From positions 1 through 64,000 of the forward strand of contig WQYI01000006.1 of assembly GCA_009781315.1 (NCBI GenBank): a stretch of 64,000 nucleotides of DNA, read 5' to 3'. Below are positions 11,250-55,815 of the stretch, in pieces (within the stretch, counting starts at the first letter, position 1; every line of letters begins with the position of its first letter). Source of the stretch: Candidatus Endomicrobium embiratermitis (lineage in GTDB: Bacteria > Elusimicrobiota > Endomicrobiia > Endomicrobiales > Endomicrobiaceae). Under the pieces are notes generated by a model. That model was not told the origin of the DNA. It saw only the letters and a list, made by a program, of their open reading frames with translations, and searched no databases. The translations under genes were made by a program, and so were the position numbers.

Positions 11250-11267
11250 AAAAACTCCAATACAATT

Positions 11268-11648: not shown

Positions 11649-11699
11649 TTGAAAGCATTAAACAAAAACAGGATTAAAACTTAGATGTCAGAAAGTTAG

Positions 11700-12521: not shown

Positions 12522-12704
12522 AAAACCCCCATTCAGAAGTTAAATTTTATACAAATATTTTACAAAATTTAAAAAGCCGAATAGTATGGGGTGACCTTTT
12601 TAACTTTGTGCTGTTCTTATACACATTGAATTTTCAATGCTTTTAGACGGATTTTGCGAAAATATTATTTTCACTCGGTGTTTTGGCTTTTTTTAACATA
12701 TACT

Positions 12705-13508: not shown

Positions 13509-13571
13509 ATTAACCACTCCCTTTTATCTGCTGTTTAAGCCGTGAAAACGCTGTTTTTAGCCCGAAAATAC

Positions 13572-16706: not shown

Positions 16707-16736
16707 TCTAACTCCTAAAGGTGCCTTAAAAAAGAA

Positions 16737-16866
16737 GGCGACCTCTTTATTTATGCGGTTATCAGTCCCACAAATAAAAAAGGTCGCCAAGGTTTCGTAT
16801 GCCGTCCGAAGACGGCATACTACTCCCTATAAACATAAGCGACTTTTTTTGGGCTGATAACCGTAT
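16737..16866. repeat. Nested inverted repeats in the leader of the restriction enzyme gene
   Basis: Three pairings are seen. GGCGACC (16737-16743) faces GGTCGCC (16782-16788) and the arms extend as TCTTTATTT/AAATAAAAAA. CGGTTATCAGTCCCA (16756-16770) faces TGGGCTGATAACCG (16850-16863) with one bulge. GTATGCCGTC/GACGGCATAC (16797-16820) forms a perfect 10-bp stem with a CGAA tetraloop. The first two pairings are crossed, so in RNA they would be alternative folds or a pseudoknot. The block lies between the divergent restriction enzyme and Mrr-like genes. In the 396-base gap nothing coding is seen. Confidence 0.8.
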
Positions 16867-17102
16867 CTGTATTGCTACAAATAGGAGAAAGGCATTGTAA
16901 AACAACCCTTTCCACCAAAAAAGTCAATATTAAGTTTTAAGCCTTTTACAGCTTACACATACGACAAATATTCCTCAAATTTAACTTGCTTGTATTATAT
17001 AAAACCAACCCCATAATTACAAATTTTTAATCCTGTAAGATTTATTTATAAAAGCTTAAATGATATACTTTATAAAATCTATGTTATATACAGGAGTTTT
17101 CT

Positions 17103-40503: not shown

Positions 40504-41976
40504 TCAACTCCGGACAAACACGGTTTCGTAACGCTTTTTGTCCATAAGATTACTATACATACTGTCGTATTCCAAAACGGATTTATCCCACGAAAAATCG
40601 CTTTTGAAAGCGTTCTGCACGAGAGTATTCCAACTCTGTTTGTCGTTAAATATTTTTTCCGACTTAAGAATGGTCTGCACAAAATCTTCGCCGTAAGTTA
40701 TGTTAAACATAAAACCGTTACCCTGTTTTATGTAATGATTGTAATAAACTATCGTGTCCGACAAACCTCCGGTGCGGTTGACAATGGGAATTGTTCCGTA
40801 AGCCAAAGATATAATCTGGCTTAAACCGCACGGCTCGAAACGCGAAGGCATCATGTATGCGTCGCATCCCGCGTATATTTTATGTGCCAAAGGTTCGTCG
40901 TGTCCGAAAAAAACAGCGACATTTTTAGGCATTCTTTTTTTTGCTTCCTGCAAAGCGTACTGTATATATTGGTCGCCCGAACCTAAAATCACAAACTGCA
41001 TATTTTTGCCGGAAAGCTTATAAACAGCGTCCGTTATTATGTCAAAACCCTTTTGATTGTCAAGGCGCGAAACGCAGCCGAATAAATACGCGTTTTCGTC
41101 AACGTCAAAGCCGCACAGTTTCTGGAGTTCGGCTTTGCAGATTTTTTTTCCCGAAACATTGCCTTTTGAATAATTCGCAGCGATATATTTATCGACCGAG
41201 GGATTCCAGTATTCGTAATCTACTCCGTTTAGTATGCCGTAAATCTCATCCTTCCTGGAATTTAAAACAATTTCCATCCCTCTTCCGTTAAACTCTTTTA
41301 TTTCCAAGGCATAAGTCGGGCTTACAGTGGAAACCGCATCGGCAAGCTGTATGCCGCATTTCATGCAATTCAAATTATTATGGAATTCAAGTTTGTCCGG
41401 AGTAAAATCTTCCCATGAAAATCCGGCGGTTTCAACCGTCTCGGCCGGAAACATACCCTGATAAGCTATATTGTGTATGGTAAAAACCGAAGATGTATTC
41501 CAAAAAAATCCGTCGTTTTTCAAATTGGTTTTTAAGTAGGCCGGTATCAGCCCCGTTTCCCAGTCGTGGCAATGTATAATATCGGGACGAAACATCAAAG
41601 CTTTTACGGATTCTAAAGCGGCCCGGCAGAAAAAAATAAATCTTTCTCTGTTGTCGCCGTAATCCATGCCGCTGTCGCCGTAGGTGCCGGGGCGGTTAAA
41701 AAAACGCATATTTTCTATAAAATAAACAATTATACCGTCATATTCGCAATATTTTATTCTGAAACTTTCCGTATCTTTTCCGACTTTTACCTGAAGCCTG
41801 TATGGCAAAGTCTGCAAATCGTACTTTTTACCGTCAACGGTCCTGTATTTGGGAATGATAACTCTTACATCATGCCCGAGATTTTTAAGATATTTCGGCA
41901 AAGAACCGACAACATCCGCCAACCCCCCCACTTTGACAAAAGGAACGCATTCGGAAGCGACCATTAATATATTCAT
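40504..41976 (-). CDS. glgA: Glycogen synthase (ADP-glucose type)
   Basis: 490 aa from the ATG at 41976, which shares bases with the galT stop (TAATG). The longer reading adds 24 Arg-rich residues from the galT frame and was rejected. GT5 signatures are KVGGLADVVGSLPK (ADP-glucose binding), HCHDWETGLIPAY, and RFEPCGLSQIISLAYGTIPIV. It extends glycogen from ADP-glucose. Coupling with galT suggests a shared hexose-phosphate pool feeding storage. Confidence 0.95.
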   Translation of the reverse strand: MNILMVASECVPFVKVGGLADVVGSLPKYLKNLGHDVRVIIPKYRTVDGKKYDLQTLPYRLQVKVGKDTESFRIKYCEYDGIIVYFIENMRFFNRPGTYGDSGMDYGDNRERFIFFCRAALESVKALMFRPDIIHCHDWETGLIPAYLKTNLKNDGFFWNTSSVFTIHNIAYQGMFPAETVETAGFSWEDFTPDKLEFHNNLNCMKCGIQLADAVSTVSPTYALEIKEFNGRGMEIVLNSRKDEIYGILNGVDYEYWNPSVDKYIAANYSKGNVSGKKICKAELQKLCGFDVDENAYLFGCVSRLDNQKGFDIITDAVYKLSGKNMQFVILGSGDQYIQYALQEAKKRMPKNVAVFFGHDEPLAHKIYAGCDAYMMPSRFEPCGLSQIISLAYGTIPIVNRTGGLSDTIVYYNHYIKQGNGFMFNITYGEDFVQTILKSEKIFNDKQSWNTLVQNAFKSDFSWDKSVLEYDSMYSNLMDKKRYETVFVRS

Positions 41977-42977
41977 TATTCGCTTTCCCTCAGATATTTG
42001 GCGGCGTCTTCGGGAGACACGGGATTTACATAAAGTCCCGTTCCCCATTCAAAACCCGCGGTCTTGATAAGTTTTGGGATTATTTCAATATGCCAGTGGT
42101 AATGCGGCATATTTTTTTCTTTTAAAGGCCCCATATGTATTAAAGCGCTGAACGCCGAATCGTCCAAAACTTTAGAGATTTTTGAAAAAACAGATTTTGT
42201 TATCCGCGCGCAGCTTGAAATTTCAGCCGCGGATATCGTATCAAAATCCGAAGCGTGGTTTTTCGGCAAAATCCATGTTTCAAAAGGATATCTTGCCGCG
42301 TACGGGCAAAACGCCGTAAAGAATTCGTTCTCGTCAACTATCCTTATTTCGGAGGAAAGTTCCTGGGAAATCATATCGCAGAAAACACATCTTTCTTTAT
42401 AAGAAAAATATTCTTTCGCGCCGTTTATTTCTTCTCTGACCCTTTTCGGGACTATGGGCATAGCTATAAGCTGCGAATGAGGATGCTCGAAAACCGCATT
42501 TGCAAGAATGCCGTAATTTTTAAAAACAAGGATATACTCGAGTCTTAAATCGTTTCTTAAATCCTTGATTCTTGCTATGGCGGCTTCATATATAGTTTCA
42601 TAGTATTGCGGGGTAATTCTATCCTGCTTAATATCGTGTTCCGGCGTTTCTATAATTATTTCGTGCGCGCCTATTCCTTCCATCTTGTCATACATGCCTT
42701 CGCCGCGCCTTTTTAAATTTCCCTCTATTGCCAAAACAGGCTGATTATTGGGAATAACCCTTAATGTCCAGCCTTTGGAGTTAGGCATCCTGCCGGAAAT
42801 TTTTGAATAAGCCAGAATTTCAGGCCTTGTCATATATTCGTTTCCCGGGCAAAACGGACAGGCGGAATGATCTTTAGGATACGACTCCGTTTCCGAAGGA
42901 TCACTTTTATTAAACCTTCTGTCGGAATCTATTATAACCCACCTGCCGATTACCGGGTCGCGTCTGAATTCAGGCAT
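41976..42977 (-). CDS. galT: Galactose-1-phosphate uridylyltransferase
   Basis: 333 aa. The catalytic HPH lies in VFEHPHSQLIAMP. Zinc ligands sit in CPFCPGN and CVFCDM. HWHIEIIPKL is the C-terminal HIT-like motif. It exchanges UMP between UDP-glucose and galactose-1-phosphate in the cytoplasm. Its start shares a base with the PorV-TPR gene stop and its stop with glgA, so it is part of one long minus-strand transcript. Confidence 0.94.
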   Translation of the reverse strand: MPEFRRDPVIGRWVIIDSDRRFNKSDPSETESYPKDHSACPFCPGNEYMTRPEILAYSKISGRMPNSKGWTLRVIPNNQPVLAIEGNLKRRGEGMYDKMEGIGAHEIIIETPEHDIKQDRITPQYYETIYEAAIARIKDLRNDLRLEYILVFKNYGILANAVFEHPHSQLIAMPIVPKRVREEINGAKEYFSYKERCVFCDMISQELSSEIRIVDENEFFTAFCPYAARYPFETWILPKNHASDFDTISAAEISSCARITKSVFSKISKVLDDSAFSALIHMGPLKEKNMPHYHWHIEIIPKLIKTAGFEWGTGLYVNPVSPEDAAKYLRESE

Positions 42978-45214
42978 TACAATCCTCCTAAAAATTTTAT
43001 TCTTTCAAGAGTTTTTGCAACATCGGTTCTGTTAGGATTATATTCCAAAGCTTTTTCCATAAGTTCAACTGCTTTTTTTCTATTTCCGGAAGAATACGCC
43101 TTAAGACCCGCGTCGTAATACTGCTGGGCTAAAGCAGCCGAAACATTTTCTTTTTCTTTTATTGCCGACTGAAACTTAGGATTATAATTTATGGCGTCGG
43201 TAAATTTAACCAAAGCTTCGTCAAATTTTCCTTGTTTAACAAACGCTTGCCCTTCCCTGTAAAAACCTTCGGCAATAGCTTCCCTTGCTTTGTTAGAATA
43301 ATCTTTTATGGATTGGTTTAAATCGTAATAGCTGTTTTTTATTGATTTTTCCCTGAGGCTTACAAAAGCCCTTAAAGCTTCTTCGTATCTTCCGTTGTTA
43401 AAATAATCCACAGCCTGGTTATAATACCGCTCCATTTCTTTCTGGATTTTCTGATTTGAAGATAAAACGGAATCGTCTTTATCGGCAAGCCTTGTAACCT
43501 GTTTTTGTTTTGATTGCGCCTGCGCCGATTTGGCGTTTTTTTCAGTTTCTTCGGAATACGCGATATTTAAAGCTTTTTTTGAAAGTTCGTAATATTCTTT
43601 CGCGTCCGCGCGGTTCGGATCAGCGGTATGAACCGCGCTAAAATGCTTTGCGGCCCTGTCGTAATCCGCCATATTGTAATATTCCATGCCCTGGGTAAAC
43701 AGTTTATCCGCCTGCATTGAATTTATTTTGGATATGCGTACATTAATTGTGCTCATATATTTCAGAGCACCGGCGTTTTCCGGATCTATATCGAGAATTT
43801 CCCTGAATTTGTCTTTTGACGCTACAAAATTTCCTTCGTCAAACAACTTAATCGCCTCGTTCCACAATTGTATGATTTCTTTTTCATATTTCTTTCTGTT
43901 CGCCCGAATTTCAGCCTGATAAAGCTTTTTGCTTAACTCGGAAAGACCCGCTTCCGCTTCAGCGTTTTCAGGTTCAATGCTTAAGACTCTGTAATAATAG
44001 TCTCTTGCTTTTATAAGGTTGTCTCTGTGAAGTTCCAAATCCGCTCTGCGCAGATATTTGTTCACTTGCAGTTCAAGGTTTCTTTCATAGATGTCAAGGT
44101 CGTAAATTATTTTTTTCAAATATTCTTTAGACGGGGCATGATTAGGATATATAGCCAAAATCTTTTCAAATTCCTGCCTTGCGTTTATAAAATCTCTTTT
44201 ATCGTAATATTCTTTGGCTTTATTGAAATTAGATCCTAGATAATAATCAAAAGCTTTTTTATCATCCGTAACGCCTCCGAACATAAACCCTAAACTCACG
44301 AGGTGATAAGCGTCGTAGCCTTCCGCCATAGCGGAAAAAGAATAACCTATATTAAACGAATCGAAATTTAAAAACATACCCGCGGTAAAACCTTCGTTTA
44401 TTTCATCGTCTAAATCCCTATAACCCGCCTTAAAAGTTACCGGATAGACAGGCGAGATTTCGACTCCCGCAGCTACTCCCGTGCCGTAAGAAAAAAATTT
44501 CATAACGTCGCCGGTAAACGCAATGCCAAGCGGACTAACAGGAATCTCATACCTTAAAGCAAAATTGAAGCTTGCGGGAATTTCAAAAGACTCGGCGCCG
44601 GTTATTTCAACCGAACTTCCCAAATTTTTTAAAGCGACAAACGCCCAAAGCCCGCTTATAAACGAGCCAAGAGTGTAATGTACGCCCAAATCCGCCGTAA
44701 AAACCATTTTAGACGTATCGCTTGCCGACAACTGGTATCCTTTAACAGTTAGTCCTAAACCGCCCTTATCCGCGTAAACCGGAACCTCCGTCGAAAACGG
44801 CAAAACGAAATTAATAAAAACAGAACTGTCGGAAGAAAGAGCTTTGCCGTCGGGAGTAATAATATCCACGGAATCGAATCTGTCATAAGTTCCGCCGATA
44901 GTGAGATTTCCGTATTCCAAAGGAAGCATTAACGCGCCGGCTGTGCCGTAAAGACCGCCGTAAGCGGCAATTCCGGAAAAATCGAGCCTTTTTGACAATA
45001 CGCTGAAATTAGAGGAAGGATTTGCGGTAAAACCGAGAGAATTCAATGAAAAAGACGCAAGAGTACCGCCCATGGCCTGCGAACCCGCGTCGTAATTTAA
45101 AATAAAAATATTAGACGCCGGAATTTTATTTGCCGCAAAAACCGTTTTATGAAGAACAACGGAAAACAGAAAAAACAGAGCAAAACAAACGCATATTTTT
45201 ATTTTTTTTTTCAT
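42977..45214 (-). CDS. PorV/PorQ-type barrel fused to long TPR domain
   Basis: 745 aa. A signal peptide (about 1-27) is followed by a PorV-type start (NYDAGSQAMGGTLASFSLNSLGFTANPS), a barrel to about residue 325, then at least eight TPR units (about 330-740; for example EYYDKRDFINARQEFEKILAIYPNHAPSKEYL). The barrel would sit in the outer membrane and the TPR part in the periplasm as a scaffold. The start overlaps the response regulator stop (ATGA). It is the distal gene of the kinase-phosphatase operon, so it may be a target or output. Confidence 0.82.
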   Translation of the reverse strand: MKKKIKICVCFALFFLFSVVLHKTVFAANKIPASNIFILNYDAGSQAMGGTLASFSLNSLGFTANPSSNFSVLSKRLDFSGIAAYGGLYGTAGALMLPLEYGNLTIGGTYDRFDSVDIITPDGKALSSDSSVFINFVLPFSTEVPVYADKGGLGLTVKGYQLSASDTSKMVFTADLGVHYTLGSFISGLWAFVALKNLGSSVEITGAESFEIPASFNFALRYEIPVSPLGIAFTGDVMKFFSYGTGVAAGVEISPVYPVTFKAGYRDLDDEINEGFTAGMFLNFDSFNIGYSFSAMAEGYDAYHLVSLGFMFGGVTDDKKAFDYYLGSNFNKAKEYYDKRDFINARQEFEKILAIYPNHAPSKEYLKKIIYDLDIYERNLELQVNKYLRRADLELHRDNLIKARDYYYRVLSIEPENAEAEAGLSELSKKLYQAEIRANRKKYEKEIIQLWNEAIKLFDEGNFVASKDKFREILDIDPENAGALKYMSTINVRISKINSMQADKLFTQGMEYYNMADYDRAAKHFSAVHTADPNRADAKEYYELSKKALNIAYSEETEKNAKSAQAQSKQKQVTRLADKDDSVLSSNQKIQKEMERYYNQAVDYFNNGRYEEALRAFVSLREKSIKNSYYDLNQSIKDYSNKAREAIAEGFYREGQAFVKQGKFDEALVKFTDAINYNPKFQSAIKEKENVSAALAQQYYDAGLKAYSSGNRKKAVELMEKALEYNPNRTDVAKTLERIKFLGGL

Positions 45215-45576
45215 TTCAAAAGCCTGTTCATATACAAAACGAGCTTGTCAATATCCAGAGGCTTAAACACACAGTCGTCTGCGCCTTCCGCAAAAGCCTT
45301 ATCTACATGGACCGTCATATCGCCGGTTATAAGTATAATCGGAATATTTGAAAAATCTTTGCTCGCTTTTACGGTCTTTAAAACTTCAAAGCCGTTTATA
45401 TCGGGAAGATTTACGTCAAGCAGTATTAAATCCGGTTTGTCGGCCGACAAAGCTTCATAAGCGCTTTCCGCGCTTAAAGCCTTTATAATTTGAAAGTTTT
45501 TAGTCTCCAAAATACTTTCCGCGGAATCTAAAAATGCCGCGTCGTCGTCAACAATCAGAATTTTCTTCTTTTCCAC
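45211..45576 (-). CDS. Single-domain response regulator
   Basis: 121 aa, CheY-like. The acceptor is D54 in ILLDVNLPDINGF, with acidic pair D10-D12 and K near residue 105 (CVFKPL). No output domain. It begins with GTG (GGGGG upstream) just 2 bases after the PP2C gene and overlaps the next gene by 4 bases. No histidine kinase is adjacent. The orphan kinase at 22822, which itself ends in a receiver domain, is far away, so the phosphate donor is unknown. Confidence 0.92.
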   Translation of the reverse strand: MEKKKILIVDDDAAFLDSAESILETKNFQIIKALSAESAYEALSADKPDLILLDVNLPDINGFEVLKTVKASKDFSNIPIILITGDMTVHVDKAFAEGADDCVFKPLDIDKLVLYMNRLLK

Positions 45577-45578
45577 TT

Positions 45579-47015
45579 TTATTCCCCCGCTTTTTCAGGA
45601 AGCATTATTATATTTTTTTTCTCTAATTCTCCGGAAGGTTCCACATCCAAATCTACGGAATCGACAAGATAATATGTTTTTTGATCTAAAATTTTATACC
45701 CCAGAAATTTTAGCGTCATAATATAAGAGCCTTTAGGGATTTTTATGCCCAAAGGATCCTGCGAAGAAAAGCCGGCAAACACAACAGCCCCGTTTTCCTC
45801 TATTACGACATGAACGTTTGATAACGGATTTGTATAATTTTCCCAGTTATTAACAATATCTTTGAAAATCTCGAACCTATACGCTTTAGGCACTTTATCG
45901 TCTACAGCTTTAAAAATACGCTTAATTTGTTCGTCGTTTGCCGTTCTCACATCTAAAGAAATACCTGAAACAGTTCCGGTAATTTCATGCAGTTCTTTTG
46001 CGCTTTTTTTATGTTTCTGTGAAAACGATATTAAAAACCCTGCGCTTACCGTCGCCAAAACAACTAAAAACCCTATAAAATAAATACTTGTAAAAAAATT
46101 TCTGTCTCTGGCGGATTTAGGAATACACACGTTAAAATCGTATTTGGCTAAAAATTTATCCTCCGCGGAAGACTGAAGAGAAGTATCATCGGCTACCGTA
46201 ACAGGACTGAAAACATAATCTTTTGTAGGATTATAAAAAGTGTTATCTTCGTCTACCCTTAGCGCCAATGCCGTGGTATTGTCTCTCCCGCCGGCATTAT
46301 TGGCCGCCGCTATAAGCTCTTTCGTAACAACGTTAATATCTTTTCCGTGGATATCTACTATGTCTTTTATAACGGAATCTTCTATTTCGCCGTTTAAACC
46401 GTCGCTGCACATTATGTAATAGTCGCCGGGTTTTACCTCAACGGCTCTGTAATCAATTTTAATTACCGCTCCCGTTCCCAGAGCCCTTGTTATCATGCTC
46501 TGTATTTCGACCGTTTTTACGTCTTCTTCTCTCATTTTTCCTTCTTCAATCAGCTCATTAACTTTGGAATGGTCTTTGGTGAGAAGCTCTATAATGCCCG
46601 CTCTTATTCTGTAAAGTCTGCTGTCTCCCGAATGATATATGTGCAGAAGTCCCTTTTCAGCCTCAACTTTCGTCGCGACTACGGTAGTTCCCATACCCGC
46701 GAGTTTCGGATACTTAAGGGTAAGATTATATAACATTTTATTAGTAAGCATTATTGAAGCTATAGGACGAAGTATTTCGATATTTATATGGCTTAACTTG
46801 CTGCCTACGATACTTTTTATCTGGGCATCGTTAAGCTTATCGGAAGAGTTCAGCATAACTTCTACGGCGCACCTGCTGGCAAAATCGCCGGCGGCCCCGC
46901 CGCCCATTCCGTCGCATACTATAAAAAAATCTTTCGCGGAATTTATTCCGTAAGCGTCCTGATTTTCTTTTCTTACTAAACCGGTGTCTGTCCTGGCAGA
47001 ATATAGAATCTTCAT
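45579..47015 (-). CDS. PP2C-type protein phosphatase with membrane anchor
   Basis: 478 aa. The PP2C domain (1-about 245) has metal-binding Asp in KENQDAYG, CDGMGGGAAGDFAS, CSDGLNGEI and RDNTTAL. A single helix follows (about 312-332, SIYFIGFLVVLATVSAGFLI) and then an extracytoplasmic strand-rich domain ending in ILDQKTYYLVDSVDLDVEPS, resembling a PEGA-like fold. It should dephosphorylate targets of the adjacent Ser/Thr kinase. Overlaps the FHA gene stop by 4 bases. Confidence 0.9.
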   Translation of the reverse strand: MKILYSARTDTGLVRKENQDAYGINSAKDFFIVCDGMGGGAAGDFASRCAVEVMLNSSDKLNDAQIKSIVGSKLSHINIEILRPIASIMLTNKMLYNLTLKYPKLAGMGTTVVATKVEAEKGLLHIYHSGDSRLYRIRAGIIELLTKDHSKVNELIEEGKMREEDVKTVEIQSMITRALGTGAVIKIDYRAVEVKPGDYYIMCSDGLNGEIEDSVIKDIVDIHGKDINVVTKELIAAANNAGGRDNTTALALRVDEDNTFYNPTKDYVFSPVTVADDTSLQSSAEDKFLAKYDFNVCIPKSARDRNFFTSIYFIGFLVVLATVSAGFLISFSQKHKKSAKELHEITGTVSGISLDVRTANDEQIKRIFKAVDDKVPKAYRFEIFKDIVNNWENYTNPLSNVHVVIEENGAVVFAGFSSQDPLGIKIPKGSYIMTLKFLGYKILDQKTYYLVDSVDLDVEPSGELEKKNIIMLPEKAGE

Positions 47016-49216
47016 AGAAATTCAACCTTAACCTTTTTAGAACTTTCCCTCATGGCAAGCCTTACTTTAATAACTAAAAATACGACTAAAAGCGATATTC
47101 CTACAAATAACATTTTCCTGTATTTTGACTTGTAAGCGTCAAGCCCGTCAAAACCGGTATGCGACTGATTTCCCAAAAACATAGGCCATACGCGGAAGTT
47201 TTTCATAGTTCTCGCATTAGTGTCGATTACCTGAAGCGCATCCGTGGAATTTGCAAATAAAATATTTAAAAAACCTTTCCCGAATAAATCGGCAATAACA
47301 GGCGAAGAAGTAATCGGGCTGTTGCTGGCTCTTATTTCAGCCATTACTTCAAACTCTTTGCGTCTGGGGTTACTTTTAATAACCATTATTCTTCCGTCTT
47401 CCGTGGCTATTACGAAATCCATTAAACCGTCTTTATCAAAATCATACATTGCCGGCGAAGATATCATCCTTCCGGCGCCGGGAATTTGAAGCTTCCACAA
47501 AAGCTCTCCGGTCGGATATCCGATTTTTCCGCGCAAACCTAAAACAGAACCGTTTGCGGAAACAACAAACACGTCGCCTGTGCCTTTCCCGGTAAGATCC
47601 GCTACAAGCGGCGAAGCATTGCGGGACAGACCCGCGGGAGGAGTAGGTTCGACAAAATACGTCCAGCTGACGTCAAATTTACTGACGTCTATTGCGGAAA
47701 TATACTGAGGAACGTTTGACTGCACTATAACGGCCGGAATGCCGCTGCCGTTAATATCGCCGACGACCGGAGCTCCGGCTATAAGATGCGGTTTGTTGGT
47801 TTTTGCAAACAAGTCCACGGTCTTTTTTGTCCTGGACTTGCCGTCTATAAAATACACCTTGCTGGCGTAATTAGCCACTACTACCATCGGAGCAATGTCT
47901 TTTGTCTGGTAAAGAACGGGGCTTGCATATATAGGAGCTTCCACATATTCGGTATATTTTTCATACAAACTGTCATAACCGACGTTATAAAGGAAGTGTA
48001 CGGCGCCGTCTTCTGAACATACGACTATGTCCATTTTTCCGTTACCGGTCAAATCCGCTACAAGAGGAGTCATTTCAGACACCACGCCGCCTAACATTTC
48101 TTTTCTTATAAGGGTGCCGGACAGTCCGTCAAAAATAAAAAGCATTGAGGAATCCGACAAAACTATTATATCTTTGGTCCCGTCGTTATTTACGTCGGCA
48201 AGCATCGGCGAAGTCTTGCCTGAATTGAAAATTTCTATCTGGCGCCATAACGGGTCTCCTGTTCTGGCATCCCATGCGTATAAAAACCCCGACGCGGTAA
48301 GCATAGCTATGCTGTTTCTGCCGGTTCCGGTCAGGTCTCCCACAGCCGGAGTGGAAGTAATATCAAATTCCTCGAAATTTCTTAACGGAATATCTTTTCT
48401 AAAATCCTGATTAAGGCTCAAAGACAATTTCCAGCCTTTAGATTCCGGCGATAATAAAGAAATTCCGCTCCAGCCGGCCACTATATAAAACAGAGATACG
48501 CCTAAAACCGTCAATGTAAACAGCAAAGACAAAGGCCTTATTATTTTCAGCAAAAATATGCGCTGCTTAGCCGGGAGCGAATAATTTTCGTTTTTCGAAC
48601 TTACAAACCTGAATATCGTCCTGCCTATTGAAATTTCATCGCCCGGTTCTATAATCATACTGTTAAGCTGTCCGACTTTTTGCCCGTTTACCGCAACTCC
48701 GCCAGTGCTTCCGACGTCGGTAATAAAAAACTGGCTGCCGTTTACGGAAATTTTGGCATGTCCCTTCGAAGCCGTCATATCGCCGGAAAGAACTATGTCA
48801 TTTTCAATACCGCGCGGAGACTGCTGTTCCCTGCCTATAAAAGTATCGCCGTTTTTTACGGAAAATTTCTTTCCGAAAAATTTCCCGAAAATTCCTATAA
48901 GATAATAATCCGGCGCCTCCGGCGAAACATCGGGCGCCATAACTATGTAGTACTGCCCTATACCTATTATATCCCCGATTTTAAATTCGGATTCCGAAAC
49001 TGTTTTACCGTTTAATTTTGTTCCGGTTATTGTATTCTGGTCCTTGACCGAATACCCTCCGTCTTTAAAAATAATCGAACAATGATGATCGGAAATATTA
49101 CTGTCTTTTATGAGAATATCATTGCCCTTTTTGCTTCCCACAAAAATTCTGGATTTACGTTTGAGCACGTATTCGCCTAATATTTCTTCTTTTTTCTTCA
49201 AAAACAGCCTTGGCAT
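47012..49216 (-). CDS. FHA-domain protein with extracytoplasmic FG-GAP propeller
   Basis: 734 aa. Two N-terminal FHA domains (about 20-95, with SNISDHHCSIIFKDG; and about 120-210, with DMTASKGHAKI) bind phospho-Thr. A membrane helix (about 229-247) leads to a beta-propeller (about 265-690) with repeated FG-GAP/VCBS units such as TPAVGDLTGTGRNSIAML and MLADVNNDGTKDIIVL. A second helix lies near the C-terminus (about 709-725). The FHA part would read kinase output inside the cell and the propeller would act outside. Confidence 0.88.
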   Translation of the reverse strand: MPRLFLKKKEEILGEYVLKRKSRIFVGSKKGNDILIKDSNISDHHCSIIFKDGGYSVKDQNTITGTKLNGKTVSESEFKIGDIIGIGQYYIVMAPDVSPEAPDYYLIGIFGKFFGKKFSVKNGDTFIGREQQSPRGIENDIVLSGDMTASKGHAKISVNGSQFFITDVGSTGGVAVNGQKVGQLNSMIIEPGDEISIGRTIFRFVSSKNENYSLPAKQRIFLLKIIRPLSLLFTLTVLGVSLFYIVAGWSGISLLSPESKGWKLSLSLNQDFRKDIPLRNFEEFDITSTPAVGDLTGTGRNSIAMLTASGFLYAWDARTGDPLWRQIEIFNSGKTSPMLADVNNDGTKDIIVLSDSSMLFIFDGLSGTLIRKEMLGGVVSEMTPLVADLTGNGKMDIVVCSEDGAVHFLYNVGYDSLYEKYTEYVEAPIYASPVLYQTKDIAPMVVVANYASKVYFIDGKSRTKKTVDLFAKTNKPHLIAGAPVVGDINGSGIPAVIVQSNVPQYISAIDVSKFDVSWTYFVEPTPPAGLSRNASPLVADLTGKGTGDVFVVSANGSVLGLRGKIGYPTGELLWKLQIPGAGRMISSPAMYDFDKDGLMDFVIATEDGRIMVIKSNPRRKEFEVMAEIRASNSPITSSPVIADLFGKGFLNILFANSTDALQVIDTNARTMKNFRVWPMFLGNQSHTGFDGLDAYKSKYRKMLFVGISLLVVFLVIKVRLAMRESSKKVKVEFL

Positions 49217-49237
49217 TGTTTACTCCCTTATTAACCA

Positions 49238-49289
49238 AAAGTGAAGAGCGCTAAGTGATTGCATAGTAATCACTTTTACTTCTCACTTT
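49238..49289. repeat. AAGTGA-word palindrome
   Basis: AAAGTGAAGAG...AAGTGATT pairs with AATCACTTTTACTTCTCACTTT around GCATAGT. It is a short copy of the intergenic word-palindrome type, between the coiled-coil gene and the FHA gene. Confidence 0.75.
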
Positions 49290-49296
49290 GCCTTTA

Positions 49297-51201
49297 TTAT
49301 CTGGCTATAAAAAATTTATACATGTCATTCAATCTGTTTTCCACTCTTTCAATATCCGAACGCATTTCGTCTTGCGATTTTCTTATTTCGCTTTTCATAT
49401 CGCCCGCAGTAGGCATTTCCGAAATGATTTTCCTTAATTCATTAAGCTGGTCTATAATAAAGTCCGTACCGACCGAAGAACCTTTCCCTTTTGCAGGCGA
49501 CGCGGCAACAGTCCCTCCCCCGGAGTCAAGCTCATCAAGTTTTTTAGACAACCGCACATAGTTTGTCTGTATCTGTTCAAGAGTTCTTTTTATTTCAGTT
49601 ATATCTGATGAAAACGAATCGCGCACATAAGAAGTCTTGTTTAAACTTGTTACGGTTGATTCCATGCTCTCAAGTCTCTTTGACAACGAATTAAGCTTTT
49701 CGTTAATAATGTTTATCCCGTTAGCATCATAAGAAACTTCGGAACCTTTATTTCTGGATTTTGACAACCCCGCTATCTGATTTTCATTTAAATCAATTCT
49801 CTTTGCAAGCAAATCAAGTTTTGAAATAACGTCCGCCTCTGTGCTGCTAAATGTTTTTGAAAATCCCGCTATTTGATTTTCATTTAAATCAATTCTCTTC
49901 GAAAGTAAATTAAATTTTAAGATGACGTCGTTTAAGTCCTTTGAAGAAATTTCGGAACCGCTGCCTTTAGAAACCGTTTTTGACAGTCCTGATATTTGAT
50001 TTTCATTTAAATCAATTCTCTTTGCAAGCAGATCAAGTTTTGAAATTATGTTATTTATGTCCTTTGAAGAAAATTCAGGACCGCTGTTAGAAACTGTTTT
50101 TAACAGCACTGCTATCTGGTTGTCATTTGAATCTATTCTTTTAGCAAGCAGATCAAGTTTTGAAATTATGTTATTTATATCCTTTGAAGAAAATTCGGAA
50201 TCGCCGCCTTTATTAGAACCTATTTTTGACAATCCTGCTATTTGATTTTCATTTAAATCAATTCTCTTTGCAAGCAGATCAAGTTTTGAAATTATGTTGT
50301 TTATGTCCTTTGAAGAAAATTCGGAATCGCCGCCTTTATTAGAACCTGTTTTTGACAATCCTGCTATTTGGTTATCATTTGAATCTATTCTCTTCGAAAG
50401 CAAATTAAGTTTAAAAACGATGTCGCTCATGTCCTTTGAAGAAAATTCGGAATCGCCGCCTTTATTAGAACCTGTTTTTGACAATACTGCTATTTGGTTA
50501 TCATTTGAATCTATTCTCTTCGAAAGCAAATTAAGTTTAAAAACGATGTCGCTTATGTCCTTTGAAGAAAATTCGGAATCGCCGCCTTTATTAGGACCTG
50601 TTTTTGACAATCCCGCTATTTGGTTTGAAGTTAAATCCATCCTCTTTGAAAGCATATCCACTTTCACATTTAAAGAATCTATATTTTTTAACAAGGAAGC
50701 CGAACCTTTGAAGCCTGAACCGCCTCCGGATTCAACCTGCTGCTGCAATTCTCTGAACACCTTAGAATTTTTTAAACTGCTGTCCAAAAGCATCGGCATA
50801 TTAGGCGTTAAATCGGAAATGAGCTGAACTATATCCACTCCGTCCGACGATTTACCGCCTTTTTTTTCAAAAGAAGAAATCTTGTTTTTTAAACTATCGA
50901 ATTCCTGACGGGTTATAAACGTTTTAGACGCATCAGCGGACAGCGAGGCAACAGCACTTCTTGTCCTTTTGTCGTATTCATAAAGAGCCTGAAGCAAAGA
51001 TCCTCTGGTTACAGGCTCTTCCTCGACAAAAACGGTTTCCCCGTACCTATCGATAAATTTGGGCATTTTTGTACTGAACTCATTGATTATCTCCCTTAAA
51101 ACAGGATCATTAACGTCGCGTTTTACGGCTGAAAACACGGGAGCGGCGTTTACTGTCATAACTGCGGCAACAAACAAAGAAATCATCTTTTTAATTTTCA
51201 T
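49297..51201 (-). CDS. Secreted repeat coiled-coil surface protein
   Basis: 634 aa from the ATG at 51201 (AAGAGG 6 bases upstream). Signal peptide to about residue 25 (APVFSA). The N-domain (about 28-115) contains ITRQEFDSL and an SLH-like GSLLQALYEYDKRT stretch. About eight repeats of up to 42 residues follow, each with KLNLLSKRIDSNDNQIA and a Ser/Gly-rich SNKGGDSEFSSKD hinge. The C-terminal part is again coiled. It should form a long periplasmic or surface rod. It lies between the kinase and FHA genes in one operon. Confidence 0.82.
   Translation of the reverse strand: MKIKKMISLFVAAVMTVNAAPVFSAVKRDVNDPVLREIINEFSTKMPKFIDRYGETVFVEEEPVTRGSLLQALYEYDKRTRSAVASLSADASKTFITRQEFDSLKNKISSFEKKGGKSSDGVDIVQLISDLTPNMPMLLDSSLKNSKVFRELQQQVESGGGSGFKGSASLLKNIDSLNVKVDMLSKRMDLTSNQIAGLSKTGPNKGGDSEFSSKDISDIVFKLNLLSKRIDSNDNQIAVLSKTGSNKGGDSEFSSKDMSDIVFKLNLLSKRIDSNDNQIAGLSKTGSNKGGDSEFSSKDINNIISKLDLLAKRIDLNENQIAGLSKIGSNKGGDSEFSSKDINNIISKLDLLAKRIDSNDNQIAVLLKTVSNSGPEFSSKDINNIISKLDLLAKRIDLNENQISGLSKTVSKGSGSEISSKDLNDVILKFNLLSKRIDLNENQIAGFSKTFSSTEADVISKLDLLAKRIDLNENQIAGLSKSRNKGSEVSYDANGINIINEKLNSLSKRLESMESTVTSLNKTSYVRDSFSSDITEIKRTLEQIQTNYVRLSKKLDELDSGGGTVAASPAKGKGSSVGTDFIIDQLNELRKIISEMPTAGDMKSEIRKSQDEMRSDIERVENRLNDMYKFFIAR
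49790..50660. repeat. In-frame 126-bp minisatellite inside the coiled-coil gene
   Basis: The same 126-bp block (42 codons) recurs in tandem, clearest between 50040 and 50640, with copies nearly identical in DNA. Outer copies are shorter (about 117-120 bp and less) by loss of the Gly-rich hinge. Length is a multiple of three, so copy number changes keep the frame. Confidence 0.88.
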
Positions 51202-51244
51202 ACCGCACCTCTTAAAATAAAAATTCAACTAAATTTTATTTGAC

Positions 51245-54157
51245 TTATTTAAGCGGTTTTGCGCAATTCACGCAAAATCTAAGTTTTCTTCCGGCCGGCA
51301 CTGTATTTATATAACCGCAATAAGGACATAATATTACCTGAACGTCACCTTCTTTTTCTTCCGGAGAAGTAACGACAGGCGTCCTAGGTTTGTCAGGTTC
51401 AGGTTTGTCAGGCGCAGGAGGAATAACAACTATCGGTTCTGTCTCTTCAGCAGGAGCTTCAGCCACCATAATTATTTTATGACTATATCCCCTGCCGGGA
51501 GCTAAAACAACGTCAAACTGCTGTTCTATATAACCTTGCGCGACAACTTTTCCTATTACCTGACCCGGGTCAAAAGTGTCAGTCCACGCGCCTTTATTAT
51601 TTGTTTTTCCGGCGATTTTATCGTCAATCCAGACAAAAACGCTTTCAAGCGGAATTTCTTTTCCTTCACCGTTTAAATACACTACGGATATATTGAGAGG
51701 CACTTTTGCATAAACCATTTCCGCTTTTACGGAATTTATTTTTTCTATATCGACATTGTTTCTCACGTAAGGTTCAAATTCGTCCGCGGTAAAAGTAAAT
51801 TTATAAACACCGCTGGGAAGAGGAACGGTAACCGGCTTGCCGGTGCCGACTTCTCTTGTAGTCTGAAATTCTTTGCCTTCAATTTTAAGTTTAGCTACAA
51901 AAGATTCGGCTCTGCTTTGGCTTGATTGAACCCTGAAAGTAATATATTTATTCATTTTAACAAAAAGTTCCGACGCAGACGCAGCCGAAATCTCAACTTG
52001 TTTTACAGACTCGCCGTAGCGGCCTTCAGGATCCATAAATCTTACTTTGTAATTTCCGGCTACCATATTTGTAGTTAAAGGAGTAACTCCTCTGGGCTTG
52101 CCTTCGCCGTCAACATGAACCGTCATTTTTGACGGAACGGAAGTAAATTTAAATTTCTTAAACATTCTGCCTTTTATGGTAAATATATTTTCTCCGTCTA
52201 TGTTTTTAAGTCCGGTTTCCCAGAAACGTTTATCGACATCGCCGAATATTTCTTCTTTGGTAGATCTTGAAAAATCTATGTTGCAAAACCCGTCTTCGTG
52301 CCCTTTGGATTTTGAACCCAGATCTTCAAACCCGGCAAGAGCAAGCCTTACGGTATGCTCTCCGGCGCTTAACTGTATTTTACACGGAGTAACGCCGAAC
52401 TTATTGCCGTCTATATAAACATCGGCTCCCTGAGGGTCGGAGTTTACGTCGAGATCAAAATCGAAAACAAGCTCTATCTTTTCATTTTTCCTTCTGTCGG
52501 ACCTTGACGTTCTTTCTTCAATTTTGACAAGACGCCGCACCGGTCTGAAACCTTCCTTCAAAGCCACAATATCATAAGTCTGCGGCTGTATTTTTCTTAA
52601 AGGAATAGGCATATTCGAACTTTCGCTCTGAAGGATTATGGTGCCGTCTCTTGCTTTCATGGTTACCATGGCTCCTGCCGGAACCGTGGTTATTACAATG
52701 TCCGGCGGATACATTCTGGCATACACGGCTTTTCCGAAAGGAGTAATTTGTTTAAAAATATCTATGCCGAAAAATAAGAGCGCCGCGAAAACTATAAAAA
52801 TCGCAGTTTTTATTATCCTGCCTTTAAGCGCTTTAAATTGCTTTACAAACCAGTCCCCGACTTCTTCAAAAACCGTTTTACCTTTGGCTTCTTCCTGAAC
52901 CTGCGAAGGCGTTTTTGCAACCTTTTGCGGCTGTGCAAAATTATCAGACGGAGGTTTATCATACTGCTGGGCCGCATTCTGGGACTCAAGAATAACGCCG
53001 GCTGCTGCGACTGTTTCAACATTATTTTGATTTTGTTCGTTTTGGAAAGGAGTACTTTGAGACTGAATGTCCGACGGAGCTGTATTGATTAAATCTCCGA
53101 CCATAAAATCATGACAAATTATCCTCTGGATTGAGGTATTATTCTTTATTTCCTGCCTGTCTACGGACTTTATAATGTTGACTACACTGTCGGAAGCATT
53201 CAGATTGTTTTCCATAACTTTGGAAATAAAAGACGCTAAATCCACAGACAATTCTTCGGTCTCAACGCCTTTCAAAAGCCTTCTTAAATCGCGGTACATT
53301 TCTATGGCTCTTTCGTATCTTACGTCTTTTTCCTTTTCTAAAGCCTTAGAAAGTATTTCCTTTATTTCATAGGGAAGTTTAAAACCTTTAAGCAAGGCTA
53401 TGTCGAATTTCTCGTTCATAACCTGTTCTTTTATCTCATGATTTGTACCGTTGTAAAGCTGTTTGCCCGTAAGCATTTCATACAAAACAACGCCTATGGA
53501 AAAAATATCGGAGCGGTGGTCTATGCTAGATTCGCCTCTTATCTGTTCCGGAGACATATACGGATATTTTCCGGTTACTACGTTTTGTTTTATGCCGTCT
53601 TTTATTTCGTCGGCGGTTTTCGCGATTCCGAAATCGCTGAGTTTTACGTTTCCGTCAAATGAAATCAAAACATTTCCCGGAGATATGTCGCGGTAAACTA
53701 TCCCGAAAGGCTTGCCTGTTATCGAATCTCTCGCCACTCGGTTGGCGTAATCAATTGCCTTAAGCACGCTTATGCATATTAAAACGGAAAGTTCCCAGGG
53801 GATTCTTATCTGAAGTTCATTACATCTTCTTATTACGTCTTCTAAATCAACGCCTCTTACAAAGTCCATTGCAATATAATAGGCGCCGTTGTTTCCTTTC
53901 CAGAAATGCTGTACCCTTACGATATTGTCGTGGATAATATTTTTAGCTATTAAAGCTTCTTTATAAAACATTTCCACAAATTTCTGTTCCGAATATTCTT
54001 TGCGGAGTTCTTTGACGGCAATAAAATTTCTGAGGCTGAAATCGTACGCCTGCCATACGACGCCGAAACCGCCCTGTCCTATTTTTTTCACGGTTACATA
54101 TTGGTCATTAATAAATAAACTTAAATCCAAGCCGTTAAGAGATTTACTTTCAGCCAT
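51245..54157 (-). CDS. Membrane Ser/Thr protein kinase with PEGA domains and zinc ribbon
   Basis: 970 aa. The Hanks-type kinase domain (about 20-290) has the Gly loop GQGGFGVVW (28-36), K49, the catalytic loop YRDISPGN (155-162; Tyr replaces the usual His), D175 in SDFGIAK and SPEQ in the activation segment. A Pro/Gln-rich linker leads to one membrane helix (about 445-465), then several PEGA-like domains (starting near 488, 575, 675), and a C-terminal CPYCGYIN...FCVNCAKPL zinc ribbon. It heads the signalling operon behind its own promoter. Confidence 0.92.
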   Translation of the reverse strand: MAESKSLNGLDLSLFINDQYVTVKKIGQGGFGVVWQAYDFSLRNFIAVKELRKEYSEQKFVEMFYKEALIAKNIIHDNIVRVQHFWKGNNGAYYIAMDFVRGVDLEDVIRRCNELQIRIPWELSVLICISVLKAIDYANRVARDSITGKPFGIVYRDISPGNVLISFDGNVKLSDFGIAKTADEIKDGIKQNVVTGKYPYMSPEQIRGESSIDHRSDIFSIGVVLYEMLTGKQLYNGTNHEIKEQVMNEKFDIALLKGFKLPYEIKEILSKALEKEKDVRYERAIEMYRDLRRLLKGVETEELSVDLASFISKVMENNLNASDSVVNIIKSVDRQEIKNNTSIQRIICHDFMVGDLINTAPSDIQSQSTPFQNEQNQNNVETVAAAGVILESQNAAQQYDKPPSDNFAQPQKVAKTPSQVQEEAKGKTVFEEVGDWFVKQFKALKGRIIKTAIFIVFAALLFFGIDIFKQITPFGKAVYARMYPPDIVITTVPAGAMVTMKARDGTIILQSESSNMPIPLRKIQPQTYDIVALKEGFRPVRRLVKIEERTSRSDRRKNEKIELVFDFDLDVNSDPQGADVYIDGNKFGVTPCKIQLSAGEHTVRLALAGFEDLGSKSKGHEDGFCNIDFSRSTKEEIFGDVDKRFWETGLKNIDGENIFTIKGRMFKKFKFTSVPSKMTVHVDGEGKPRGVTPLTTNMVAGNYKVRFMDPEGRYGESVKQVEISAASASELFVKMNKYITFRVQSSQSRAESFVAKLKIEGKEFQTTREVGTGKPVTVPLPSGVYKFTFTADEFEPYVRNNVDIEKINSVKAEMVYAKVPLNISVVYLNGEGKEIPLESVFVWIDDKIAGKTNNKGAWTDTFDPGQVIGKVVAQGYIEQQFDVVLAPGRGYSHKIIMVAEAPAEETEPIVVIPPAPDKPEPDKPRTPVVTSPEEKEGDVQVILCPYCGYINTVPAGRKLRFCVNCAKPLK

Positions 54158-54290: not shown

Positions 54291-54986
54291 CTAAACTTCC
54301 GTAATCGTTTCAGTATTATTACCAACGGTTTCAAAAGCCTGTTTATCGACAATTGCAGGTTCGGTTTGCAGCTGCTGTGCGTACTGCGAATCAACGGTTT
54401 CTTTTTCTCCGCTATTAAAAGGCAGTTCCGGTTCCGGGAGATTTTCAGTCTGCTGCGCTTCTTTAGGCACATTATCTATCAGCGGAAGTTCGCTTAAATG
54501 CGCAAGACCGAAATGTTTTAAAAACTCCTGCGTCGTGCCGTAAAGCAAAGGCCTTCCGAGCGTCTCTTTTCTTCCGACTATTTTTATTAACTTTCTTTCA
54601 AGAAGCGTATCTATTACGCCCGAAGATTCCACGCCTCTTACTTCGTCGATTTCAGCTCTGGTTATCGGCTGTTTGTAAGCTATCATGGCAAGCGTTTCAA
54701 GCGCCGAAGGAGAAAGTTTTAAAACATTTTTTTCTTTGAGAAGCTTTTTTATCCACGGCGAAAAATTTGTTTTTGTCGCGAACGTCCATCCTTCCGCCAC
54801 GAATTTAATTTCATAGGGCTTATTCATATTTTCATATTCGGTTTTTAATTCGTTTAAAAGATTTTCAATATTTGCCGTATCGGAATAATCTTCTTTGATT
54901 ATGTCTTTAAGCTCTTTCAGGCTCAAAGGCCTTTCCGACACAAAAAGCAAAGCTTCCAAAACTTGTTTAACTTCAGATATTTCCAT
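54291..54986 (-). CDS. scpB: Segregation and condensation protein B
   Basis: 231 aa from the ATG at 54986, one base after the scpA stop; a longer reading would extend into scpA's basic out-of-frame tail. Two winged-helix domains: MEISEVKQVLEALLFVSERPLSLKEL and LETLAMIAYKQPITRAEIDEVRGVESSGVIDTLLERKLI. The C-terminal 50 residues are acidic and disordered, longer than in many homologues. It binds ScpA and Smc in the condensin complex. Confidence 0.94.
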   Translation of the reverse strand: MEISEVKQVLEALLFVSERPLSLKELKDIIKEDYSDTANIENLLNELKTEYENMNKPYEIKFVAEGWTFATKTNFSPWIKKLLKEKNVLKLSPSALETLAMIAYKQPITRAEIDEVRGVESSGVIDTLLERKLIKIVGRKETLGRPLLYGTTQEFLKHFGLAHLSELPLIDNVPKEAQQTENLPEPELPFNSGEKETVDSQYAQQLQTEPAIVDKQAFETVGNNTETITEV

Positions 54987-54987
54987 C

Positions 54988-55815
54988 TTAATCCTCTCGA
55001 TTTTCCTGTTCTGTTTCAGGTTCAAGTTCAAAATCGGGCGCCGGAACTTCCGTACTGAGCGGCTTTTCTTCTTCAATTAATCCCAATTCTTCTTCCTGTT
55101 CCTTTACGTTATCTTCGACTTCCTCATTATAAACTTTGTAAATCCTTATATCCTGAAACAGCTCCGACTGTTTCGCGGCAACTTGCCTGTTTTTTATAAG
55201 TTCCAAAACGGCCATAAAACAAACAATCAAAGCCATTCTGGTTTTTTGCATTTTTAAAATTTCGGTGAAAGAAATGTACTGTTTTCCTTCAAGTATATCA
55301 AGTATTTCTCTTATTTTTGTTTCTATCGGAATTTCCTGATACATTATTTCTTTGATGTCGTCAGGCAGAGCCGTCAACGCTTCGCGGAAACTTTCCATTA
55401 AATCAAAAATCGTCGCTTCCAAAACAAAATCGGTTTTATTTACCACGGGCGCGGGTCTGTAATAAATCTGGGAATTTTCTATAGCCTTATAAGATAAAAG
55501 TTTTCCTATCTCTTTATATTTTTGGTATTCAATCAATTTATTTTTTAAATTGTCAAACGGGTCTTCTTCTCCGTCTTTTCCGATTTCCGACGGCAAAAGC
55601 GTTTTAGCTTTTATCTGCATTAAAGTTGACGCCATAACGAGAAATTCGCCCGCGATATCTATGTTAAGCTCTTTCATCAAATCGAGATAAGAAAGATATT
55701 CGGAAGTTATATCGGCTATTTTTATCTCGCTGATTTCCAAATCGTTCTTTTTTATTAAATGCAAAAGAAGGTCTAAAGGACCTTCAAAAGTATCTAAATG
55801 AATATCGTATGACAT
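54988..55815 (-). CDS. scpA: Segregation and condensation protein A (kleisin)
   Basis: 275 aa. FEGPLDLLLHLIKKNDLEISEIKIADIT is the kleisin N-terminal Smc-contacting part, and the C-terminal winged helix ends in LELIKNRQVAAKQSELFQDI. An acidic tail of about 40 residues follows. It bridges the Smc heads during chromosome segregation. scpB follows directly. Confidence 0.94.
   Translation of the reverse strand: MSYDIHLDTFEGPLDLLLHLIKKNDLEISEIKIADITSEYLSYLDLMKELNIDIAGEFLVMASTLMQIKAKTLLPSEIGKDGEEDPFDNLKNKLIEYQKYKEIGKLLSYKAIENSQIYYRPAPVVNKTDFVLEATIFDLMESFREALTALPDDIKEIMYQEIPIETKIREILDILEGKQYISFTEILKMQKTRMALIVCFMAVLELIKNRQVAAKQSELFQDIRIYKVYNEEVEDNVKEQEEELGLIEEEKPLSTEVPAPDFELEPETEQENRED

Follow-up and report, generated by a model that had tools for sequence, protein, structure and literature searches.

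A six-gene operon of Candidatus Endomicrobium embiratermitis, in which a membrane Ser/Thr kinase, a phosphatase and a phosphopeptide reader lie among envelope proteins, raises the question of whether Ser/Thr phosphorylation controls a machine that spans the cell envelope. The operon lies in a 64,000-nucleotide stretch of contig WQYI01000006.1 (assembly GCA_009781315.1), hereafter the window, and a first-pass annotation, made from the letters alone, had read it as a complete phospho-signalling operon built into envelope proteins, with the look of such a machine. That a Ser/Thr kinase, a phosphatase and an FHA protein can together control an export machine is established from the type VI secretion system (T6SS), and regulation of type IX secretion (T9SS) is established via two-component systems and sigma factors. 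To our knowledge, almost nothing is known of the surface biology of Elusimicrobiota, of which Endomicrobiales are a little-known order of gut bacteria. A search of a limited set of papers found no relevant one joining FHA, FG-GAP and PEGA domains, or type IX secretion and a Ser/Thr kinase; a search within Mies 2024 gave no match for adhesins or secretion. If the reading proposed below is true, a conserved cassette coupling Ser/Thr control with T9SS-type surface parts would bring two fields together, and Elusimicrobiota would gain a first testable surface organelle.

The Operon and Its Signalling Proteins

All six ORFs are intact on one strand (42977-54157), in the order first annotated: kinase (KIN), coiled coil (CC), FHA-propeller (FHAP), phosphatase (PP2C), receiver (REC) and PorV-TPR (PORV/TPR) (Table 1). 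The four very close junctions that had been described agree with the measured distances: FHAP and PP2C overlap by 4 bp, PP2C and the receiver are 2 bp apart, the receiver and PorV-TPR overlap by 4 bp, and the single shared base of PorV-TPR and galT extends the tight linkage past the six genes. The spacing is wider from the kinase to the true ATG of CC (43 bp) and from CC to FHAP (80 bp). The inverted repeat in the latter interval has no counterpart at the same position in the related locus L051; it was rejected as a multicopy element, the genome having one full copy only. Pfam and NCBIfam agree with the initial domain calls for kinase and PEGA, FHA and FG-GAP, PP2C, receiver and TPR.

Table 1. 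Features of the operon and its flanks, in window coordinates.
Feature	Position	Strand	Evidence or remark
galT-like gene	41976..42977	-	overlaps PorV-TPR by 1 bp; opens 3' flank
PorV-family outer-membrane barrel with C-terminal TPR (PORV/TPR), 745 aa	42977..45214	-	Pfam TPR_2 2.4e-27
Stand-alone CheY-like receiver (REC)	45211..45576	-	Pfam Response_reg 7e-25
PP2C phosphatase	45579..47015	-	Pfam PP2C_2 4e-7; NCBIfam Stp1 6e-60
FHA-propeller reader (FHAP)	47012..49216	-	Pfam FHA x2 1.6e-27, FG-GAP 8e-20
Inverted repeat between CC and FHAP	49229..49293		folding -16.7 kcal/mol (z -1.84)
Exported coiled-coil rod (CC), 634 aa	49297..51201	-	alignment and DNA comparison
126-bp tandem repeat, 6.5 copies	49852..50658		encodes the repeated coil segment of CC
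Deletion scar, kinase stop to CC ATG	51202..51244	-	sequence comparison with PORV0
Membrane Ser/Thr kinase (KIN), 970 aa	51245..54157	-	Pfam Pkinase 1.6e-41, PEGA 5.9e-25
scpB and scpA	54291..55815	-	conserved 5' flank of cassette

The kinase has a cytoplasmic catalytic domain (residues 20-281), one transmembrane segment (448-466) and PEGA-type domains outside, according to Pfam and transmembrane prediction. It ends in a Cys4 zinc ribbon, predicted to be extracytoplasmic, which is conserved in relatives with the exception of genomes G068 and G030. The catalytic residues K49, D157, N162 and D175-F-G are invariant in an alignment of 15 sequences. A Pfam scan found PEGA instead of PASTA domains, and the PASTA-kinase model PknB_PASTA (NF033483) scores 214 bits, far under its cut-off of 450. 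FHAP is predicted to carry two cytoplasmic FHA domains, a transmembrane segment (220-238), an outside FG-GAP/PQQ-type propeller, a second transmembrane segment (702-720) and a short, conserved, basic cytoplasmic tail; FHA2 retains the invariant R129, S150, H153 and N177, while FHA1 lacks the Arg. PP2C is predicted to combine a cytoplasmic catalytic domain, a transmembrane segment (311-329) and an extracytoplasmic alpha/beta domain (residues 352-478). Its AF2 model (mean pLDDT 85.8) matches PP2Cs in Foldseek, among them PppA of T6SS (6jkv). The outside domain resembles KIN residues 745-830 (hhalign 94%; 12 controls at or below 3%), which indicates a related extracytoplasmic domain common to kinase and phosphatase. 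Writer, reader and eraser thus each join a cytoplasmic signalling domain to an extracytoplasmic one, bearing out the claim that all three cross the membrane. The receiver has D10/D11, D54 and T84; the deepest branches have a tandem double receiver instead (e.g., L066). The intact catalytic and phospho-binding residues count in favour of the switch proposed below.

An Ancestral Nine-Gene Cassette and Its Losses

In Endomicrobiales the cassette has the order KIN-FIB-CTD-PORV0-CC-FHAP-PP2C-REC-PORV/TPR, where FIB is a fibre protein, CTD a protein with a T9SS sorting domain and PORV0 a PorV/Q barrel. This order is found in L051, L052, L061-L066, L068 and others, including deep branches, usually between scpAB and the conserved 3' flank galT-glgA-ftsX-envC-ctpA. 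Conservation of gene order, which had been proposed as a check, is thus observed across Endomicrobiales, above chance. The window keeps KIN, FHAP and PP2C in order at the scpAB/glgA site and has no FIB, CTD or PORV0 between KIN and CC; a genome search found FIB absent from the whole genome (G000). L051 carries FIB-CTD-PORV0 at the point where the window has a scar, in which a stretch of approximately 37 nt corresponds to the 3' terminus of PORV0 from Ca. Endomicrobium macrotermitis (NKI*LNFYF* against NKISLSFYF*). The true start of CC is the ATG at 51201, since the TTG at 51228, with which the ORF opens, falls inside the relic of the deleted gene. An alignment and a survey of tails indicate that the window CC also lacks the C-terminal hydrophobic tail of its orthologues (..ISLGITMIAALFVAR).

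These comparisons indicate that the nine-gene cassette is the ancestral form in Endomicrobiales, and that the window holds an eroded copy, from which FIB-CTD-PORV0 and the tail of CC have gone while the switch is retained. A misassembly is unlikely, because a diverged PORV0 relic persists and CC lost its tail independently. The operon can therefore no longer be called complete, three surface genes and the membrane tail of CC being missing relative to its relatives; reading a complete machine from a single genome can mislead, as this copy with its visible scar illustrates.

The window is one case among several. On the FHAP tree PORV0 was lost five times independently, with CC gone in three of the losses and tail-less in two, and every tip with PORV0 retains the CC tail (23/23). 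KIN, FHAP and PP2C remain in all five lineages. FIB, CTD, PORV0 and the tailed CC thus behave as a single unit in these losses, and these coupled losses with a surviving core identify the surface genes as a module that the phospho-core can outlive. At the cassette site of G068 (L070) only kinase, FHA-propeller and PP2C are left, with no coiled coil, receiver or PorV-TPR, and four Endomicrobiellum species have the core, receiver and PorV-TPR without FIB, CTD, PORV0 and CC; such gene contents show that the core is separable from the surface module. The first-pass annotation had named as refuting its reading either relatives with the genes scattered or relatives that keep the kinase set without the surface genes. 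These genomes show the second situation in part. In G018, G040 and G052 the whole set is decaying together, and in the complete genome of the cultured, free-living E. proavitum the whole cassette is missing from a clean empty site with intact flanks. Within one family of termite-gut symbionts the partial losses run from nine genes to six, five, three and none, and so provide natural deletions in which the switch can be told apart from the machine.

Surface Proteins and Type IX Parts

In FIB of the relatives an N-terminal sandwich is followed by variable repeats and then by a C-terminal domain, and no sorting domain was recognised in the protein. In its N-terminal sandwich and variable repeats it resembles the mosaic adhesive trimer (MAT) fibres of Bdellovibrio, but the N-domain scores 18.1 bits with the MAT model, below the cut-off of 60. 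The best Foldseek matches of the C-domain, whose fold is similar to that of lambda gpD-type trimers, are the phage capsid cement/decoration proteins of HFTV1, TW1 and lambda (gpD), with probability 1.0 but a weak best E of 3e-3 (mean pLDDT of the model 64.6). The C-domain also matches the Phage_cement_2 HMM, although a sequence search against the PDB gave no match. Pfam and NCBIfam rule out a type IV pilus or T2SS as the identity of the three extra genes.

PORV0 of the relatives matches PorV_fam at 4e-18 (66 bits against a cut-off of 90), and their CTD gene passes the cut-off for FlgD_ig/Por_Secre_tail in L061 and L066; the window operon has no CTD gene, and elsewhere in G000 only weak CTD-like matches occur. 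Family models detect no PorV barrel in the window PorV-TPR protein itself, but a profile of its family (A4) matches TPRs and the solved PorV 6h3i_F (4e-11) in a PDB search, which upholds the claim that the set includes a PorV-type outer-membrane protein. A paralogue passes the PorV/PorQ cut-off (105.7 against 90 bits). It sits in HK-RR-sigma-PORV/TPR-CTD loci, after the HK-RR-sigma genes and before a stand-alone CTD protein of about 130 aa. Of 36 genomes with intact FHAP, 33 have this paralogue, and it was found in none of the 11 Endomicrobiaceae of at least 90% completeness that lack an intact FHAP. The two PORV/TPR loci thus co-occur across genomes, in counts uncorrected for phylogeny. A putative, distant SprA/Sov homologue of 1783 aa is encoded elsewhere in G000, and this type is found in most of the class. 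It matches TIGR04189 at 1.5e-34 but with 118.6 bits, under the curated cut-off of 200; phmmer against the PDB gave no match, so that this NCBIfam profile is its only support. The first-pass idea of an envelope-spanning machine is strengthened by relatives that add a fibre, a T9SS-sorted protein and a second PorV barrel, while the window set is incomplete.

Relation to Known Systems

The threonine phosphorylation pathway of T6SS (PpkA-PppA-Fha) likewise has an operonic membrane Ser/Thr kinase with an extracytoplasmic domain, a PP2C structurally near the one described here, and an FHA reader, and it is attached to an envelope machine, as is proposed here. It differs in that the reader of the cassette sits in the membrane and bears a propeller outside, that the phosphatase likewise has an extracytoplasmic domain, and that the linked machine parts are T9SS-type; a search for the T6SS sheath protein VipB (PF05943) found none in G000, whereas the E. 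coli control was positive. With Porphyromonas type IX secretion the cassette shares PorV-family barrels and a C-terminal sorting-domain protein, a putative SprA/Sov homologue is encoded elsewhere, and the paralogous locus matches the HK-RR-sigma-PorV-CTD parts list of the PorXY-SigP-PorA path of P. gingivalis (PMC7712824). In contrast to that path, the operon relies on a Ser/Thr kinase, a phosphatase and an FHA reader and has a stand-alone receiver; its PorV protein bears a long TPR domain, and SprA is distant. PknB/Stp1 clusters and the CHASE2-like kinase-PP2C-FHA clusters of the class (L045-L047) also have adjoining kinase, PP2C and FHA genes, with an Stp1-like phosphatase; here, however, PEGA replaces PASTA, PknB-type cell-wall polymerase neighbours are lacking, the reader as well as the eraser spans the membrane, and surface genes are linked.

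Proposed Mechanism and Alternatives

The best reading, to which we give a probability of about one half, is that the cassette encodes a phosphorylation switch that spans the envelope and is attached to a type IX-like module for surface display. This switch, like that of the T6SS pathway, would govern whether a surface fibre of T9SS type is displayed; the anatomy is seen in the genes, and the control link is what we infer. Phospho-control of the envelope machine might then work as follows. The outside domains of kinase and phosphatase would sense envelope or secretion status, and both enzymes would set the level of phospho-Thr on a partner to which FHA2 in the propeller protein may bind. The propeller, with CC and PorV-TPR, would pass this state outward, or inward, switching display, and the receiver may relay signals of a histidine kinase whose gene lies elsewhere. 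CTD and possibly FIB would cross the outer membrane via the SprA/Sov homologue with PorV-type barrels as partners; FIB may be a trimeric fibre capped by its phage-cement-like trimer domain, and the tail-anchored CC may bridge the periplasm to the surface module. A fuller version is doubtful: that this is the first type IX-like fibre display under Ser/Thr phosphorylation, with a membrane-spanning reader, coupling through tail-anchored CC and PorV-TPR, and a trimeric fibre for host or substrate binding that is lost as symbionts become intracellular. The window organism is left with switch, PorV-TPR and a soluble coil, and its system would therefore serve something other than the lost fibre, signalling from or acting on another target; survival of the core without surface genes, there as in G068 and Endomicrobiellum, argues that the targets cannot be the fibre alone.

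That same survival of KIN-FHAP-PP2C alone in G068 suits a general envelope or cell-wall Ser/Thr core of the PknB-Stp1-FHA kind, with growth or wall enzymes as outputs and the fibre module as a freely lost passenger, as do the Stp1-like phosphatase and a setting amid scpAB, an ftsX-like gene, an envC-like M23 protease and ctpA. We consider this rather unlikely, in view of the missing PASTA domains and the low PknB_PASTA score, the coupling of CC tail loss to PORV0 loss, and a nine-gene order retained through deep branches; moreover, its absence from free-living E. proavitum indicates that the cassette is not essential for growth. Less probable still is a sensor that carries the state of type IX secretion from outside to inside, in which PorV-TPR and CTD would sense and the Ser/Thr core would report to transcription or metabolism. 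The paralogous PorV-TPR locus, the PorA/PorV precedent for PorXY-SigP and the receiver within the operon fit such a sensor, but the Ser/Thr operon has no sigma factor or DNA-binding protein, and the window retains the core after losing CTD and PORV0. Phospho-control of fibre display is also preferred to a fortuitous packing of genes in a small genome, with co-transcription as their only shared function. The tight spacing that runs on into the unrelated galT/glgA would be expected from packing, which is nevertheless very improbable given an order kept across several families, clean empty sites after whole-cassette loss, the joint decay in three genomes and the five coupled losses.

The operon of the window and its products

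The six ORFs of the operon are all intact and lie in the order described by the first-pass annotation, which read them as a complete Ser/Thr phospho-signalling operon built into envelope proteins and looking like an envelope-spanning machine. Pfam and NCBIfam models identify the Ser/Thr kinase, which bears PEGA domains, as well as the receiver and the Stp1-like PP2C; in the FHA-propeller protein (FHAP) they find FG-GAP repeats along with two FHA domains, and in the PorV-TPR protein TPRs. The PorV barrel of the PorV-TPR protein was undetected by family models; a 22-sequence profile of its family matched the solved PorV 6h3i_F at 4e-11, and a PorV-TPR paralogue of the same genome passes the PorV/PorQ cut-off. 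The membrane topology originally proposed agrees with the transmembrane segments predicted from hydropathy (one in the kinase, two in FHAP, one in PP2C) and with the signal peptides predicted for the coiled coil and PorV-TPR.

The catalytic residues of the kinase (K49/D157/N162/D175), the metal ligands of PP2C, D54 of the receiver and the phospho-binding residues of FHA2 (R129/S150/H153) are conserved. FHA1 lacks the binding Arg, and FHA2 is therefore the likelier phospho-reader. The outside domain of PP2C (AF2 pLDDT mostly above 90) is related to kinase residues 745-830, with an hhalign probability of 94% against at most 3% for twelve control segments, so that writer and eraser may read related cues.

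Location of the features discussed
Feature	Location	Strand	Remark
PEGA kinase	51245-54157	minus
Zinc ribbon	51251-51310		conserved Cys4, kinase C-terminus, predicted extracytoplasmic
PORV0 relic interval	51202-51244		kinase stop to coiled-coil ATG
Coiled coil	49297-51201	minus
Inverted repeat	49229-49293		hairpin-forming, coiled coil/FHAP interval, site of the coiled-coil tail deletion; missing from nearest relative
FHAP	47012-49216	minus
PP2C	45579-47015	minus
Receiver	45211-45576	minus
PorV-TPR	42977-45214	minus
Low-GC region	10000-18000		GC 0.29-0.33 vs about 0.40
SprA/Sov homologue	G000:C14 (L121:2022-7373)		1783 aa
HK-RR-sigma-PorV-TPR locus	G000:C8 (L041:7030-12593)
PorV-TPR gene of a distant family	L048:6764-11851 (G010)		adjoins a weakly FIB-like 942-aa repeat protein, outside operon context

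The ancestral nine-gene cassette

The window belongs to contig C6 of a 1.9-Mb genome. FHAP genes, intact or partial, occur in 46 of the 96 genomes of the class, a count in which a few of the weakest matches span the FHA part only. In a scan of 84,980 species they are restricted to Endomicrobiales, bar one contig filed under Paludibacter (L105, JAQUWU010000065.1). This contig bears the operon of Endomicrobiales, flanks included, and its placement is probably a binning error.

In most relatives, including locus L051 of the nearest named one, the congeneric Ca. Endomicrobium macrotermitis (G057, L051/L077), three extra genes lie between kinase and coiled coil: FIB, CTD and PORV0. FIB contains repeats and a conserved domain at its C-terminus; the likeness in fold of this domain to trimeric phage cement/decoration proteins (E 3e-3, probability 1.0) comes from a model of mean pLDDT 64.6 and is suggestive only. 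CTD has a FlgD_ig/Por_Secre_tail sorting domain at its C-terminal end (the L061 and L066 matches exceed the Pfam cut-off), and PORV0 is a PorV/PorQ protein (4e-18). The order KIN-FIB-CTD-PORV0-CC-FHAP-PP2C-REC-PORV/TPR is kept from genus to genus in family f1 and also in f3 and f6, two deeper families, in most cases with scpAB at the 5' flank and, in f1, with galT/glgA-ftsX-envC-ctpA at the 3' flank. The receiver is a tandem double one in L066 and about 250-280 aa long in the remaining deep branches.

The window holds a reduced copy of this cassette. About 37 nt between kinase and coiled coil match the PORV0 3' end (..NKISLSFYF* in L051 vs ..NKI*LNFYF* in the window); the relic is the direct scar of a deletion that ran from just past the kinase to within PORV0. 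Elsewhere in the genome, CTD gave weak matches only, and FIB gave none, in a search that had no positive control. The coiled coil, lengthened by a 126-bp tandem repeat, has lost about 30 in-frame codons from its end, including the hydrophobic tail ISLGITMIAALFVAR common to orthologues. The secreted rod described earlier is thus a derived form, and hydropathy suggests that the relatives' proteins are tail-anchored. The complete envelope machine does not hold for the window copy, where FIB-CTD-PORV0 and the tail are lost, and the claim is strengthened for the relatives; the observation was confirmed and its interpretation borne out in part.

Coupled losses

On a tree of FHAP, PORV0 was lost five times: in the window, in G091 (L067), G068 (L070) and G086 (L096), and in the Endomicrobiellum clade L091/L095/L099/L103. 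The coiled coil is absent in three of these lineages and tailless in two, while the tail is present in 23/23 tips with PORV0 (including L110, where a frameshift leaves it on a second piece). Kinase, FHAP and PP2C are kept in all five, FHAP by selection, since the tree was built on it. G068, which has lost the surface genes, also lacks the receiver and PorV-TPR at the cassette site, and its kinase has lost the zinc ribbon. Several cassette genes are in fragments between intact flanks in G018, G040 and G052, and the site is cleanly empty in E. proavitum, G012 and G013 (scpB then directly glgA) and in G069 (scpB then directly galT-glgA). These partial, coupled and whole-cassette losses mark the cassette as a unit of two layers: the phospho-core, which can be separated, and the surface layer, made up of interdependent parts. 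Elsewhere in the class, other families have smaller clusters (L045, L046, L047) in which a CHASE2-like transmembrane kinase is joined by PP2C and an FHA protein; these may be ancestral to the phospho-core or cousins of it.

The type IX link and a proposed mechanism

A SprA/Sov homologue (1.5e-34, below the curated cut-off) is encoded in the window organism and in most of the class, in a phylum where T9SS is hardly described. A conserved histidine kinase-response regulator-sigma-70-like factor locus ends in the PorV-TPR paralogue in the same genome (L041) and in L042, L043, L040 and L050. In L041, L040 and L050 the paralogue is followed by a protein of ~130 aa, little more than a sorting domain; the small protein of L043 matches this domain weakly. 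The arrangement resembles PorXY-SigP-PorA of P. gingivalis, in which PorA, a CTD protein, passes a surface signal to PorXY-SigP (PMC7712824). In raw genome counts, uncorrected for phylogeny, the paralogue is found in 33/36 genomes with intact FHAP and in 0/11 Endomicrobiaceae genomes of 90% or higher completeness that lack an intact FHAP.

Gene content, order, hydropathy topology, residue conservation and coupled loss are the observed elements of the mechanism. Most likely, the kinase and the phosphatase together govern the phosphorylation of a putative Thr target bound by FHA2. The membrane-spanning FHAP would then couple this state, in the presumed direction of signalling, to periplasmic/outer-membrane parts displaying a candidate fibre of T9SS type, exported by a presumed route. 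The nearest working analogue of the Ser/Thr cassette is the T6SS threonine phosphorylation pathway; VipB was not found in the window organism's genome, and identity with that pathway is therefore ruled out. Elsewhere in the window, the low-GC region holds a 1072-aa ORF and is possibly acquired.
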